From NCBI RefSeq assembly GCF_033060595.1, contig NZ_CP133038.1, positions 1,116,001 through 1,180,000 of the forward strand: DNA of 64,000 bases. The letters are read 5' to 3'. Position 1 is the first letter of the stretch, and every line of letters begins with the position of its first letter. Both the position numbers and the translations under genes were made by a program. Below, one piece after another: positions 1 to 29,301 of this stretch. The notes under the pieces were generated by a model. It was not told the origin of the DNA. It saw only the letters and a program-made list of their open reading frames with translations, and searched no databases. Origin of the DNA: Pyramidobacter sp. YE332. GTDB taxonomy: Bacteria; Synergistota; Synergistia; Synergistales; Dethiosulfovibrionaceae.

Positions 1-15
1 CAAACGCAAACAATG

Positions 16-44
16 AGTTATCTTTACACGGGGGGGGGTATGAT
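16..44 (+). promoter_or_regulatory. Adhesin promoter region with nine-G tract
   Basis: A homopolymer of nine G occupies 30-38 and is followed at once by TATGAT (39-44), a good -10-like hexamer. The tract would then lie in the spacer between the -10 and a -35 that should sit near 16-22, where the match to TTGACA is poor. Transcription from here would give a leader of about 90 nt before the ATG at 143. Seen: the tract and hexamer. Inferred: that this is the promoter and that tract length changes its activity. Confidence 0.5.
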
Positions 45-142
45 ATGCTCTTCACTGTTTGCCCATATACAATTTGAATGCGTTTGTTTTATCAATCGAA
101 TTTGTTTTTGTAGTAAAAACAAAAAAGGAGGAGATGTGGTAC

Positions 143-3100
143 ATGGGTTCGATTTACGAAGAGGTGGAAAACAAGGCTCGAAAATGCCATGCAGAAGCGC
201 CCGGGATCGTCGGCGTAAGACGCGCCGCGGTCCTGGTATGCGCTCTGGCGTTGGCCGTCGGGAGCTTTGAACCGTCGCGGGCGTCGGTGATCGACGAGAG
301 CTATGTGGAGATTGCGAGAGGGGCCGAGGCGAATCATACGAAGGCGATCGCCGTCGGCAATAAGGCCAAAGCAAAGGGAGAGGAAAGTATCGCGATAGGC
401 TACGAGGCGGAAGCCAACAATCCGCAGCAATCTAATTATGCGGTTCCGGCAATCGCCATCGGCTCCCGGGCGCGGGCGCTGAAAAGCAATGCCATCGCTT
501 TCGGCACGCTGAGCACCGCGCACGGCAACCGCAGTATCGCCATCGGTTCCGGCGCGGTGGCCGACGACTTTACGACGTCGTTGGGCTGGATGGCCGGCTC
601 GACGAGCAAGGTCAAAGGAGAGCATGGCGTTATTCCCGTAGGGAAGTTCAAATCGAGCAAAGAAAGCGTTTTTATCGGAAAGAACGCAGGCCGCGACATC
701 GAAGGCAAGGATAACGTCGTTATCGGCAATTATGGGGCCGAAGGCGTTCCCGAAGATGGCTCTTATGTACAAGGCAACACGCCGGGCGACAACGCAGGAC
801 ATTTCGTAGGCATCACGGCGATCGGCCGGAGCGCTCTGGTCAAAGGCGACAACGGCGTGGCTCTGGGCAAGGAAGCCAAGGCCATGGGGACCTCTGGCGT
901 GGCCGTAGGTCATCTTGCCAATGCAAAAAAGAATTTTGACATAGCCTTAGGTTACAAGGCTGAAGCCGAAGGGGTTCCCCCTTCTTCCAGTAGCACCGGC
1001 GGTTCGGCAATGGCTTTGGGCACGAGCGCCCACGCCGCGGGTATGAACGCGGTCAGCATTGGCAACGGAGCGTCTGCGACGAATACTTCCACCATCGCAC
1101 TGGGGGGCAAGGCCGAAGGACACAGTTCCACAGCGCTTGGTTATGTCACGCAGGCGTCCGGCTCCAGCGCTACGGCGGTAGGCTATTATGCCCAGGCGAC
1201 CGGGAACCAGAGCACGGCCCTCGGCACGATAGCCAAGGCCGAAACGGTCGGGGCCGTGGCCATCGGTAACGAGGCCAAAGCCGCAGCTTCCGAAGGCGAC
1301 GTCGCTTTGGGTGCCGGCTCGGAAACAGCGGCAGCCGTGGGAACGGCTTCCTACATGGTTAACGGGCAGACGAAGAATTTTGCGGGAACAGATCCAGCCT
1401 CTACCGTCAGCGTGGGCAAAGCCGGCACGGAGCGCACGATCACCAACGTGGCGGCCGGACGCATCAGCGGCAACTCTACGGACGCCGTCAACGGCAGCCA
1501 GCTGTTCGGCGTCATCGAAGAAGTGAACAAAGGAACCAAATACGGCGGAGACACGGGCGCCGTCTTTACCCGCAGACTGGGCGAACAGACCAGCGTCAAG
1601 GGCGGCAAGAGCACCGGCCTGACCGAAAACAATATCGGCGTGGTTTCCAACGGCACGGACACCCTCACCGTCAAGCTGTCCAAAGATGTGAACCTGGGCA
1701 GTACGGGCAGCCTGCAGGCCGGCGGCACCACGATCAACAGTACCGGCATCGCCACCAATCAGATCGTGGCGGGCGGCACGACGATCAACGGCACCACGTT
1801 CGACGCGGGCAACAAGCAGATCACCAACGTAGCCAGCGGCGGCAGCGTTACGAACAATGCGGCTACCATCGGCGACGTCAATACCATTATCGGCAATAAA
1901 ACCAAGTGGACCATCAAAGACGGAGGCAGCGGGAGCAAGGAAATCAACGCTACGACCCCGTTGGTCGTCAAAGGCGACGCTTACGTAAAGACCAAAGTGG
2001 ACAACTTTGGCCTTCACCTGAGCATGGACGAAACCAAGCTGAACAGCACCATCACCAACAACACCAGCATCACCACCATCAACGAGACATTGGACAAGGG
2101 GCTGAAATTCGCCGGCAACGACGGAGTTGCAGTCAAGCGCGAGCTTGGGCAAACTCTGAGCGTCAAGGGCGGATTGTCCGACGTGAGCGCGAACGCGTCC
2201 GGCAAGAACCTCGGCGTGAAGAAGAACGCCGCCGGTGACGGACTCGACCTCGTCATGAGCGAGAAACCCGAATTCACGGAAGTGACCGTCGGCTCGACGA
2301 ACAAAGTCGTTCTGAGCGAAGGCAAAATCAGCATTGGCGGCAAGGATTACATCACCACCGCCGGTCTGAACGCCAACAGCCAGCAAATCAAGAACGTAAA
2401 GGCCGGCACGGAAGGAACGGACGCGGTCAACCTCAACCAGGTGAAGTCCCTGGTCACGGCGGGGGCGAAGCCGACTACGGTCAAGGGCAGCGATAACATC
2501 GGCGTGTCCGATGGCGCGAACTCCCAGGGCGGCAAGGAATACACCGTCAGCCTGAAAGACAGCGTAACTCTCGGCACTGATCCGGCCAAGAAAATCTCCA
2601 TCGACGGAACCGCCGGCAAACTCACAGTCGGCACCAAAGTAACCGTCAACGGCGCCACCGGCGACATCCAGGCGGGCACAGTCAAGATCGCGGGCGCAGG
2701 CACAGTCAACGAACTGACGAACCGCGCCTGGGATATCGACAACCCGACGATAGTGAACGGCCAGGCCGCTACCGAAGACCAGCTGAAAGTCGTCAGCGAC
2801 GTCGTGAAGACCAACACGAGCAACATCAGCAACCTGACCACCACGGTGAACAACCACACCACCGACATCACCAACCTCAAGGGCGGCTTCACCGTGAGCG
2901 ACGGAGACGGCAGCGTCAAACCCGAAATCAAACTCGGCGAAACGGACAAACAGAACATCCAGTTCAAAGGCGAGCCGGACAAGATCGCCGTCGAAGTCGC
3001 CAAGGCCGCCGACGGAGCGACTGTGACCGTGAAAGCCGACCCGAAGTTGGGCGAGACCATCAACATCAGCAACAACACCAGCATCACCAGTCTGAAGGCG

Positions 3101-6100
3101 GGCTTCGACCTTGCCGACGCCAACGGAGTGAAGGGCAGCGTCGAACTGGGCGGAAGCAACAAGCAGGCAGTGATCTTCAAGGCAACGGGAGTCGGCGATG
3201 CCTTCACGGCGAGCGTCGACGCCGACCGCAACGTGACCTACAGTATCGACAAGACCAAACTGGTCAACAACATTACCGGCGACATCATCACCAATATCAA
3301 CAACGGCGGCACGGCCATCACCAACATCGAAGGCAAGTTCAAGGTGAGCGACGGCACGGCGGCGAACACCAAGACCCTCACCATCGGCAAGAACGGCGCG
3401 CCCGAGATCCAGTTCAAGGGCGAAGCTGACAAGATCGACGTCGAAGTGAGCGGGAGCGATTCAATCCCCGTTGTGACCGTGAAAGCCGACCCGAAGTTGG
3501 GCGAGACCATCAACATCAGCAATAACACCAGCATCACCACCATCAACGAGACATTGGACAAGGGGCTGAAATTCGCCGGCAACGACGGAGTTGCAGTCAA
3601 GCGCGAGCTTGGGCAAACTCTGAGCGTCAAGGGCGGATTGTCCGACGTGAGCGCGAACGCGTCCGGCAAGAACCTCGGCGTGAAGAAGAACGCCGCCGGT
3701 GACGGACTCGACCTCGTCATGAGCGAGAAACCCGAATTCACGGAAGTGACCGTCGGCTCGACGAACAAAGTCGTTCTGAGCGAAGGCAAAATCAGCATTG
3801 GCGGCAAGGATTACATCACCACCGCCGGCCTGAACGCCAACAATCAGAAGATCACCAACGTGGAAGCCGGCACCTCGACCAAGGACGCCGTCAACTACGG
3901 CCAGCTGACAGCGCAGATCGCCAACAGCAAGACGATCCTGAAAGACGGCCATAATACGACAGTCGAAGGCGAAGGCACGGCTGCCAAGCCGTACAAGGTC
4001 AACGTCAAAGACGATCTCGTACTGGGCAAGGCAGGAGCCGACGGTAAAGACGGTTCCATCGGCATCAACGGCAAAGACGGCCAATCCGTCGTAATTCACG
4101 GCAAGGACGGGATCAGCGTCAAGGGCAAAGACGGCAAAGACGGAGTGACCATTTATGCCAAAGACGGCGCGGACGGAACGGAAGGCAAGATCGGCCTGAC
4201 CGGCCCGAAGGGCTCCGACGGCAAGAACGCCAAAGCCGACATCGGCATCAATGCCGGCCCTGCCAGCCTCGATCCGGCGAAGAACCTGAGCGCCACCGAG
4301 ATGACCCGCATCTACTACACGGATGAAAAGGGCGATCACCAAGTTGCGACGATGGACGACGGCATGAAGTACGCCGGCGACAACGGCCAGAGCGACGCGA
4401 GCAAAGTCATCAAGAAGAAACTGAACAACACGCTCGACATCATCGGCGGAGCCTCCGGCGCGCTGACCGACGGCAACATCGGCGTGAACAACGTCGGCGG
4501 CCAGCTGAAAGTTCAGCTGGCGCAGAACCTCAACCTGACGGCAGCCGGCAGCCTGACCATCGGCGACACTCTGCTTAACGGCAGCGGTCTGACGATTACC
4601 GGCGGCCCCAAGCTCACCAAGACAGACGTGAACATGGGTGGCCTGCAGATCCACGGCGTCGCCCAAGGCACGTCCGACACCGATGCCGTCAACTACGGCC
4701 AGCTGACAGCACAGATCGCCAACAGCAAGACGATCCTGAAAGACGGCCATAATACGACAGTCGAAGGCGAAGGCACGGCTGCCAAGCCGTACAAGGTCAA
4801 CGTCAAAGACGATCTCGTACTGGGCAAGGCAGGAGCCGACGGTAAAGACGGTTCCATCGGCATCAACGGCAAAGACGGCCAATCCGTCGTAATTCACGGC
4901 AAGGACGGGATCAGCGTCAAGGGCAAAGACGGCAAAGACGGAGTGACCATTTATGCCAAAGACGGCGCGGACGGAACGGAAGGCAAGATCGGCCTGACCG
5001 GCCCGAAGGGCTCCGACGGCGAGAACGCCAAAGCCGACATCGGCATCAATGCCGGCCCTGCCAGCCTCGATCCGGCGAAGAACCTGAGCGCCACCGAGAT
5101 GACCCGCATCTACTACACGGATGAAAAGGGCGATCACCAAGTGGCGACGATGGACGACGGCCTGAAATTCGCCGGCGACGGCGGGACCCCCGTCGGCAGA
5201 AAACTCGGAGAGACGCTGAAAATCAGCGGCGGAGCGGACGTCTCGAAACTTACGGACGACAATATCGGCGTAATCACCGATCCCGCCAGCGGCGAACTGA
5301 AAGTGAAACTGGCGCAGAACCTGAACCTGGGAAGCGCCGGCAGCGTGACCATCGGCGACACTCTGCTTAACGGCAGCGGCCTGACGATTACCGGCGGCCC
5401 CGTCATCACCAAGACCAACGTGAACATGGGCAACCAGATCGTCCACGGCGTCGCCAACGGCGCCGCCGCGACCGACGCGGTCAACTACGGCCAGCTCCAG
5501 GCCGTGGAGAACAAGATCGACCAGACCAGCACCACAGTGAACAAAGGCCTCACCTTCAAAGCCGACGATACCAACACCGTCAACAGGAAACTCGGCGAGA
5601 CCCTCCACGTCGCCGGCGACGGCACGAACACCGAGACCAAAGTCGACGGCGGCAAAGTCGTCGTCGCCCTCAAGAACGAACTGAAATTCGACGTGACCGG
5701 GACGACAAACAAACTCACCATCAACAAGGACGACAAAGGCACCGTCAACGGCCTGAGCAACACAACCTGGAACCCCCTGAGCATCACCTCCGGCCAGGCC
5801 GCCACCGAAGACCAGCTCAAAGCCGTGGACGACAAGATCGCCGCCATCTCCGCCGACACCCTGAAAAGCTGGGACGCCCAGATCGACGGAGTGAAAGTGA
5901 AGACCGTCAGCAAGACCGACAACGTCCTCAACTTCAAGAAAGGCAGCAACATCAAACTGAGCGACGACAGCGGCGCCATCAAGATCTCCGTCGTCGACGC
6001 GCCGAATTTTGCCGGCAAAGTCACCGCCAAAGGCTTCGACGCCATCGGCCACAAGATCGAGAACGTCAAAGCCGGAGCCGTGAACCAGACCAGCGGCGAC

Positions 6101-6814
6101 GCCATCAACGGCGCGCAGCTGTGGAAGACCTCGAGCAGCATCGCCACCCACCTCGGCGGCGGCTCCTCCGTCACCCCCGACGGCACCGTCTCCGCCCCCA
6201 CCTACAAGTTCAAGTACGTGAACGGCGGCAGCTACAACACCGTCGGCGACGCCTTGAGCGCCGTAGACCGCCAGTTCGGCAACGTCTACAACAACTTCGG
6301 CAACGTCTACAACCAGATGGGCGAACTGAGAAGCAGCATCAAGACCACCGGAGCGCTCGGCTCGGCCTTGAGCGCGCTCAAACCGATGCACTACGACCCC
6401 GTCGAACCCAGCCAGCTCATGGCCGGCTTCGGAGCCTACAAAGGCGAATACGCCCTGGCCCTTGGCTTTGCGCACTACGTGAAAGAAGACTTCATGGTGC
6501 ACGCCGGAGTGTCCGTCTCGCACCACGGCGAGTCGATGGCCAACGCCGGGCTGACGTGGAAGATCGGCCGCAAGGAAGACAGGGAGGCGATCCCCGAACG
6601 TTACCGCAAGGGCCCCATGAACAGCGTCTACGTGATGCAGAAGGAGAACGCTCAGCTGCAGGCCGAGGTAACCTCGCTGAAACGCACGAACGCCCAGCAG
6701 GCCGAAACGAACGCGCTACAGAGCCAGGAGATCGCCGAACTGAAGGCGATGCAGGCGGAATTGAAGGCGAACATGGAGGAAATGAGGCGTCTGCTTCGCG
6801 CTTCGCGGCGCTAG
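143..6814 (+). CDS. YadA-like trimeric autotransporter adhesin
   Basis: This 2223-residue protein is predicted to be a trimeric surface adhesin (type Vc secretion) reaching out from the outer membrane. The start is set by AGGAGGAG at 126-133, nine bases before ATG 143. An extended N-terminus precedes a hydrophobic stretch (about residues 27-42) and a probable cleavage after SRAS. Residues about 50-430 carry many AIAIG/ALG-type YadA head repeats, then neck motifs such as DAVNGSQL. The stalk follows, with two collagen-like GKDG-rich blocks (about residues 1297-1370 and 1562-1636). The membrane anchor ends near residue 2143 ([10 protein letters not shown]). Unusually, about 75 more residues follow, the last 60 or so a charged heptad-rich coiled coil. 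Two DNA segments inside the gene are nearly exact duplicates. It is monocistronic and ends at a strong terminator. The family call is secure; the ligand is unknown. Confidence 0.95.
2061..2377 (+). repeat. Intragenic repeat A, copy 1 (about 317 bp)
   Basis: This stalk-coding segment recurs at 3525-3841 (offset 1464 bp) with one difference noticed by eye (T at 2365 against C). It encodes the stretch from [14 protein letters not shown] to ITTAGLNAN. Both copies are in the same frame and orientation, so recombination between them would delete or duplicate 488 codons without a frameshift. Confidence 0.9.
3525..3841 (+). repeat. Intragenic repeat A, copy 2 (about 317 bp)
   Basis: Second copy of the segment at 2061-2377, in the same reading frame of the adhesin. 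Near-identity including third codon positions points to recent duplication or gene conversion, not only protein-level selection. Confidence 0.9.
3887..4362 (+). repeat. Intragenic repeat B, copy 1 (about 476 bp)
   Basis: This segment, which includes the collagen-like GKDG block, recurs at 4685-5160 (offset 798 bp = 266 codons). Only about three base differences were noticed by eye, one of which changes Lys to Glu in GSDGKNAK / GSDGENAK. Confidence 0.9.
4685..5160 (+). repeat. Intragenic repeat B, copy 2 (about 476 bp)
   Basis: Second copy of the segment at 3887-4362. The copies are in frame and direct, so unequal crossing over would change the stalk by a 266-residue module. Confidence 0.9.
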
Positions 6815-28049: not shown

Positions 28050-29225
28050 TTAACTCTCCGAAAAATCTGTGTCGAGAGCGGTAATGACTGTATATTCCGG
28101 ATACATTTCTTGAATCTCCTCGGTAACCTCATGATAAAGCGCCGTTCTGTCTTTTGCGTCAAAACTTACAATCATATCGAAACGGATCACCTTCCGTTCC
28201 CTGTCTGCGTAAAATGCATGCATCTGCATAACATTTTCATGCTCCATGACTTTCTTTCTAATCCTGTCCCGCATTGTGGCAGCTTCCAGATCTTTTGTGT
28301 TGTAGGAATAGACGCCGATTGCCGTAAGGTATACATGATTTTTCATGGAGACTTCCGCTGTGATTTGCCGCGTCAAAACGTCCAGCTTATCAGCAGTCAT
28401 CGTATCTGGGACTTCGATATGGAGAGAGCCGCTATATGCATTTGGTCCGTAATTATTCAGGACCAGATCATAAGCTCCACGAACTTCCGGAAAAGACGAG
28501 ACCGTCTCTTTGACTCCCTTTGCAAGTTCGGCATCCCCTCGCTCGCCAAGAATTTCGGACACTGTGTTCCTCAACATTTCCAGGCCAGACTTGATAATGA
28601 CAATAGAAATGATTGCTCCAAGCCAAGATTCCAACGACACGTGAAAGATCATAAAAACGACTGCTGCCGCTAGCGTCGAAGCGGAAATAACGGAATCCAG
28701 CTTGGCATCCTCGCCGGAATTGACAAGCGAATCTGAGTTTACCTTCTGGCCGGTTTTCTTGACAAAATGTCCAAGCACGATTTTGACGAGAACGCCTATC
28801 GCGACAATCACCAAAGATGTCATAGAATATTCTGGTGTTTCCGGGTGTACGATTTTCTTGACTGATTCCGCAAAAGAGGTAATGCCGGCATAGAAGACGA
28901 TAATAGAAATGATCATTGCGCTCAGATATTCGATCCGGCCGTATCCAAACGGATGCTTCCGGTCTGCCGGCTTTGTCGCCAATTTTGTGCCGATGATCGT
29001 AATCAGCGAAGAGGCTGCGTCGCTGATATTATTGACGGCATCCATCGTGATGGCAATCGAGCCAGTCATCACACCGATCACCGCCTTGAATGCGGCCAAC
29101 ATGACATTCGCGAGAATTCCGATGATACTGGTACGCACGATAATGCGATTCCTCAACGTCGTTTTTTCAAACTCCTCCGACGACATGCCGGCGCGTTCTG
29201 CTTCTTTTATTTTCGCAGCCAACAC
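28050..29225 (-). CDS. Cation diffusion facilitator family metal exporter
   Basis: A 391-residue CDF transporter that exports divalent metal in exchange for protons. Six membrane helices occupy about residues 30-210, with a cytoplasmic C-terminal domain after about 215 and probably a further domain at the end. The HPFGYGR motif follows TM2. Metal-site residues read NNISD in TM2 and DAKLD in TM5. The Asn/Asp-x3-Asp and Asp-x3-Asp pattern is typical of manganese-type members, where zinc exporters have His. Start is GTG 29225 after a seven-G run that forms the ribosome site. GC is clearly lower than in neighbours, suggesting transfer. Metal specificity is inference. Confidence 0.9.
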   Translation of the reverse strand: MLAAKIKEAERAGMSSEEFEKTTLRNRIIVRTSIIGILANVMLAAFKAVIGVMTGSIAITMDAVNNISDAASSLITIIGTKLATKPADRKHPFGYGRIEYLSAMIISIIVFYAGITSFAESVKKIVHPETPEYSMTSLVIVAIGVLVKIVLGHFVKKTGQKVNSDSLVNSGEDAKLDSVISASTLAAAVVFMIFHVSLESWLGAIISIVIIKSGLEMLRNTVSEILGERGDAELAKGVKETVSSFPEVRGAYDLVLNNYGPNAYSGSLHIEVPDTMTADKLDVLTRQITAEVSMKNHVYLTAIGVYSYNTKDLEAATMRDRIRKKVMEHENVMQMHAFYADRERKVIRFDMIVSFDAKDRTALYHEVTEEIQEMYPEYTVITALDTDFSES

Positions 29226-29301
29226 GATGTTTCTCCCCCCCTGTTTCCGCTCCTGCGTTCTTTTTCCCGCTCGGATCCTTGCCTTTTTGCGTGTGCGCTA
29301 T

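Follow-up and report, generated by a model that had tools for sequence, protein, structure and literature searches.

A Poly-G Spacer in a Predicted Promoter Family as a Probable Phase-Variation Switch of Adhesin Genes in Pyramidobacter sp. YE332

Introduction

Does a run of nine G residues lying just upstream of a giant adhesin gene act as a switch of this gene, or is it an ordinary feature of its promoter? We addressed this question in Pyramidobacter sp. YE332 (Synergistota; genome of 2.8 Mb), in a 64 kb stretch at contig positions 1116001-1180000, hereafter "the window", to which coordinates refer unless stated otherwise. The locus of interest, named 1116k, comprises the adhesin gene at 143-6814 with its G9 tract. 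The original prediction pointed to nine Gs at 30-38, followed by TATGAT (39-44) and, some 100 bp further on, by the start of the adhesin; all three are indeed in the sequence (the ATG is at 143).

Switching through a homopolymer in a promoter spacer is already known (porA, opc, fetA, and uspA1). In Neisseria porA, opc, and fetA, a homopolymer lies between the -10 and the -35, and its length sets the transcription of the surface protein, according to excerpts of PMC2791445 and PMC3899988. In Moraxella catarrhalis, a G(n) tract upstream of the adhesin gene uspA1 gives graded transcription; in one strain, G8-10 went with low mRNA levels and G11-12 with high ones (excerpts of PMC7302503).

Results and Discussion

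The Adhesin and the Elements Upstream of It

The product of 1116k combines a YadA head, a stalk, and a C-terminal YadA anchor, the domains by which a trimeric autotransporter is recognized: in the open frame spanning 59-6814, Pfam reported, above cut-off, YadA_stalk (4.1e-45), YadA_head (2.7e-26), and YadA_anchor (4.2e-11). A further in-frame ATG lies at 134, and a hydrophobic stretch is visible by eye at the N-terminus of the adhesin. Also by eye, the 84 residues past the anchor (6560-6811) look coiled-coil-like; additional domains past the YadA anchor are mentioned for Synergistetes in PMC7549365. The elements of the locus, several of them delimited with the 13-copy alignment described below, are as follows:

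8-22, plus strand: upstream flank of the promoter element (AAACAA...TATC), moderately conserved in the 13-copy alignment
23-28, plus strand: predicted -35 hexamer TTTACA, overlapping the invariant ATCTTTAC (20-27); positions 20-27 and 29 are invariant in the 13 aligned copies
30-38, plus strand: G9 tract, read from the sequence, making up most of the 15-bp spacer (29-43); G5 to G13 among the nine copies of the genome
41-49, plus strand: predicted extended -10 TGA-TATGCT, with its hexamer at 44-49; G42, T44, A45, and T49 are invariant in the 13 aligned copies
55-57, plus strand: expected transcription start, deduced from the -10 position
127-133, plus strand: ribosome-binding site GGAGGAG, read from the sequence
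143-6814, plus strand: trimeric autotransporter adhesin, 2223 aa from the ATG at 143 (stop counted in), from Pfam, frame, and length

A Tract-Bearing Element Shared by Nine Adhesin Loci

A single G9 in 64 kb is within chance expectation, as dinucleotide shuffles of the window contained 0.42 on average and at least one in 27 cases out of 100; its recurrence before adhesins exceeds chance. Indeed, the whole genome holds seven runs of at least nine G (overlapping matches being merged): four belong to a conserved promoter element that precedes adhesins, one is a C10 located 127 bp ahead of a further adhesin frame, and the remaining two are within a tRNA-Leu gene and within a 540-codon open frame. 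When 17 x 500 bp are taken as adhesin-upstream sequence, the binomial P for the long runs near adhesins is ~6e-12; with five of the seven before adhesins, we rejected chance as the source of the promoter-element family.

The genome contains 17 YadA-anchor loci and nine copies of the conserved element ATCTTTAC(A/G)C-G(n)-...TANNNT, with tracts of G5 to G13. A search for TATCTTTAC(A/G)CGGGGG with at most one mismatch returned nine matches, all of them upstream of a YadA-anchor locus and on the same strand. Three more adhesins carry tracts of other types (G8 just inside the start at 1679k, C10 upstream at 2502k, and G7 upstream at 1369k), so that, in all, 12 of the 17 loci carry one at their promoter or start. 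Neither the element nor a G/C run of at least seven occurs in the pieces scanned for 269k, 2345k, and the three similar loci 7.6k, 2733k, and 2759k.

One has to keep in mind that the element does not always precede a working gene, since five of the nine adhesin genes that carry it have an interrupted or shifted reading frame in YE332. The frame is open from start codon to anchor at 1116k, 228k, 1271k, and 1585k; the anchor-bearing frame stops short of the promoter at 278k, 485k, 779k, and 2326k, and at 1985k, the ATG that follows the ribosome-binding site is out of the adhesin frame.

A few further observations concern individual loci. Over ~1.3 kb that begin ~190 bp past the element, the adhesins of 1985k and 779k are 99.7% identical, which suggests that sequence was recently exchanged or copied among adhesin loci. 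The frame of the 485k adhesin is apparently split, before position 4131 of its piece, by a sequence that we take to resemble a transposase. At 1985k, ~230 bp past the element, YE332 and Pyramidobacter sp. C12-8, of the same species, differ by one base in a short homopolymer; the signal-sequence frame is off the adhesin register in YE332 and in register in C12-8, and an assembly error is possible. At 1369k (contig 1368200-1380000), the G7 may be the spacer of a GTGACA-N18-TATTAA before the adhesin; C12-8 has G4 and an altered T run there. The C10 of 2502k (contig 2494000-2503000) is the run at 3293 of its piece, upstream of the adhesin, and we could assign no clear promoter hexamers to it.

Promoter Anatomy Across Copies

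We aligned 13 copies of the element, namely, the nine of YE332, three of C12-8, and one of G010, a related species. The C12-8 copies of 1116k, 228k, and 1985k, the promoters of which are identical to those of YE332, were kept out, as were C12-8 485k and G010 C1:271775; the spacer table comprises 18 copies (nine from YE332, seven from C12-8, and two from G010). Invariant in the alignment are 20-27, C29 and, past the tract, G42, T44, A45, and T49. TANNNT stands at the -10 place in 18/18 copies and the extended TG in 16/18, 779k and 2326k having CG. According to the alignment of 13 copies and the table of 18, the homopolymer lies between conserved -35 and -10 hexamers, as in promoters of the porA/opc/fetA type, and the invariant positions fit a predicted sigma-70 promoter made of TTTACA (23-28) and an extended -10 TGA-TATGCT (41-49), of which the tract would be most of the spacer. 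The latter is laid out as a C, the G run, then (T)ATGA. When window 1-400 was scanned for the sigma-70 consensus with spacers limited to 16-18, the single site reported was on the minus strand, and the promoter described here, with its 15-bp spacer, was not picked up.

Tract lengths in YE332 and spacer lengths in both strains are as follows:

1116k: G9; spacer 15 bp in YE332, 15 bp in C12-8
228k: G10; spacer 16 bp in YE332, 16 bp in C12-8
485k: G11; spacer 16 bp in YE332, 8 bp in C12-8
278k: G6; spacer 12 bp in YE332, 15 bp in C12-8
779k: G8; spacer 14 bp in YE332
1985k: G5; spacer 11 bp in YE332, 11 bp in C12-8
1271k: G13; spacer 18 bp in YE332, 13 bp in C12-8 (18 bp via a second candidate hexamer)
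2326k: G8; spacer 14 bp in YE332
1585k: G8; spacer 15 bp in YE332, 16 bp in C12-8

At 8 to 12 bp, some of these spacers are shorter than a functional promoter would allow, and the -10 of 278k (TAGTGT) is a poor one. In G010, too, both copies precede YadA-anchor loci and share their strand: one has G10 and a spacer of 16 bp; the other, before an adhesin frame of 3154 aa, lacks a homopolymer, and its spacer measures exactly 17 bp. This homologue with a fixed spacer offers a natural reference for measuring the variable promoters.

Tract Lengths in Two Strains

We compared ~1.4 kb around each tract between YE332 and C12-8 for 10 of the 12 tract-bearing adhesin loci; for 779k and 2326k, the C12-8 pieces examined contained no counterpart to compare. 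The tract of 1116k is G9 in both strains and, thus, gives no direct sign of variation at the very locus for which variation was originally predicted; lengths are also shared at 228k (G10) and 1985k (G5). Seven of the 10 adhesin tracts differ between the strains, four of seven within the promoter family:

278k: G6 in YE332, G9 in C12-8; the sole difference in 1.4 kb
1585k: G8 in YE332, G9 in C12-8; plus two mismatches
1271k: G13 in YE332, G9 in C12-8; surrounding identity of 89%
485k: G11 in YE332, G6 in C12-8; the C preceding the tract is also lost
2502k: C10 in YE332, C8 in C12-8; C10 in G009, another species
1369k: G7 in YE332, G4 in C12-8
1679k: G8 in YE332, G11 in C12-8

Ordinary sequence served as a control. 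In an alignment of the window with contig C103 of C12-8, covering 43,019 bases, we counted 56 mismatches, two one-base homopolymer changes, and one short-repeat change. One of the 44 control homopolymers of at least six was changed, keeping in mind that these runs are mostly of length six and shorter than the tracts; compared with them, the adhesin tracts give a Fisher P of 5e-6, or 5e-5 if one of the seven is taken as unchanged. The sole changed control run, at 29225-29245 on the minus strand, is a G7 (G8 in C12-8) that takes the place of the ribosome-binding site of a cation-efflux family gene (28050-29225, minus strand), immediately ahead of its GTG start codon.

Weighing the Explanations

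We consider slipped-strand transcriptional phase variation of the adhesin battery the best explanation and a probable one. Its sequence-level basis is the conserved hexamers, the intervening tract, the linkage to adhesins, and the length differences at sister loci in two strains. Could the tract instead be a fixed spacer, inherited from a duplicated promoter and without useful length variation? The copies are paralogues, hence part of their similarity is by descent, and three of the seven comparable family copies are unchanged between strains (1116k, with its G9, 228k, and 1985k). Nevertheless, adhesin tracts differ in 7/10 cases versus 1/44 control homopolymers, and the ATCTTTACRC core has a mean majority share of 0.98 against 0.61-0.66 in the diverged flanks, which makes a fixed promoter unlikely. 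Homopolymer assembly errors are less likely still as the cause of the length differences. YE332 is the shorter in all five one-base homopolymer differences read outside the tracts; its assembly, thus, likely undercounts some homopolymers, so that assembly error is possible for one-base tract differences, and cases such as 1585k are weak. Undercounting cannot, however, explain 1271k, 485k, 2502k, and 1369k, where YE332 is the longer; 278k differs by three bases, and one-base homopolymer indels, of which the 43 kb of ordinary sequence contain only two, are too rare to account for seven loci.

Two other readings concern the way in which the tract would act. The original prediction took TATGAT (39-44) as the -10 of the same switch. 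Its match to the consensus is better (5/6 versus 4/6 for TATGCT), but 39-44 varies among copies (GATGTT, GATGAT, TACGAT) and is only 10 bp from TTTACA, and the three invariant bases (T, A, and T) match a hexamer at 44-49; we, thus, rejected this hexamer on conservation, as being five bases too far upstream, and hold that version for very improbable. A conserved -10 at 44-49 would also place the transcript start near 55-57 rather than near 51, as had been proposed. The idea of a poly-G spacer that slips and tunes the adhesin finds, for its part, good support in the paralogous and orthologous copies. Translational switching, in which slippage would bring an upstream start codon into register with the adhesin or take it out, has a candidate elsewhere in the genome: at 1679k (contig 1678700-1692000), the G tract comes just after the ATG, and the frame is closed in YE332 and open over 2222 aa in C12-8, so that this locus looks like a translational switch. 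At 1116k, on the other hand, the adhesin is served by a ribosome-binding site of its own and by an ATG 105 bp downstream of the tract, which itself sits between the conserved promoter hexamers; translational switching, already thought unlikely there at the outset, is scarcely credible for this gene.

Proposed Mechanism

Under slipped-strand transcriptional phase variation, the G tract would be the variable spacer of a sigma-70 promoter driving the trimeric autotransporter adhesin. Replication slippage within a culture would reversibly add or remove Gs, and the tract length would determine how far the extended -10 (41-49) lies from the -35 (23-28) and, stepwise, the rate of transcription. Weak expression is predicted for 1116k at G9, because its 15-bp spacer is below the usual 16-18 bp; a longer tract should give a stronger one. 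With the same cassette at eight other adhesin loci, each of the nine genes is probably turned up or down separately by slips of its own tract, and a population would contain many combinations of high and low adhesins.

Related Systems and Significance

The likeness to porA, opc, and fetA lies in the position of the homopolymer, between -35 and -10 and before a surface protein. Those are, however, single genes, of another phylum and of other kinds, whereas Pyramidobacter has one cassette before nine adhesin loci, with a predicted effect of length. The nearest adhesin case is uspA1, with its G(n) upstream of an adhesin gene, although one gene is involved there; UspA1 is itself a trimeric autotransporter. 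Several paralogous surface genes with a homopolymer in each promoter are known from vlp of Mycoplasma hyorhinis and fim of Bordetella, which resemble the Pyramidobacter set in this respect and differ from it in their poly-A or poly-C tracts, their products (lipoproteins or fimbriae), and their phyla.

In the open-access literature, we found no report of phase variation for Pyramidobacter or Synergistota, older or closed reports being possible. Synergistetes and trimeric autotransporters are treated together in PMC7549365, and in its main text, the terms "phase variation", "phase variable", and "homopolymer" are absent. If the proposed mechanism is right, homopolymer promoter phase variation extends to Synergistota, and a whole set of giant adhesins is under one variable cassette, the states of which could be read from ordinary sequencing reads.

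Distribution Beyond the Species

A sequence model of the element found nine copies in YE332, seven in C12-8, and two in G010, and none in the three other genomes of the genus, two of which are 82-83% complete, or in eight genomes of two sister genera. Under stricter filters, 185 Synergistota genomes yielded four more weak model matches. The pattern of a -35 plus G8 gave 16 matches in 6 of these 185 genomes and a single one in the reversed control; viral contigs, used as background, gave 20 chance core matches, all G5 to G7, with an extended -10 in 0/20.

Two of the four weak model matches, both in one other genus, look like promoters of the same build as the adhesin element: TTGACA-G15-CATG-TATAAT precedes a 1057-aa exported protein in G061, and TTGACA-G13-ATAGGG-TAGAAT precedes a lipoprotein-like protein in G077 (signal sequences recognized by eye). 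As to kinship with the Pyramidobacter element, these poly-G cases outside the genus are leads. A combinatorial adhesin repertoire, in which the cassette would serve as independent dials at nine loci, with poly-G/C tracts at three more adhesins and a wider use in Synergistota before other exported proteins (G061 and G077), is a broader proposal that we regard as evenly poised. Other model or pattern matches outside the genus were not counted as members, the tract preceding an unclear gene in G133 and a non-adhesin gene in G079, and no -10 being seen in G112. Pfam assigned no family to the proteins encoded past the tracts of G061, G077, and G079. In G009, from another Pyramidobacter species, a long alanine-/glycine-rich open frame is preceded, at position 912 of contig C33, by a G9 and then TATGAC; the sequence ahead of this G9 is unlike the element.
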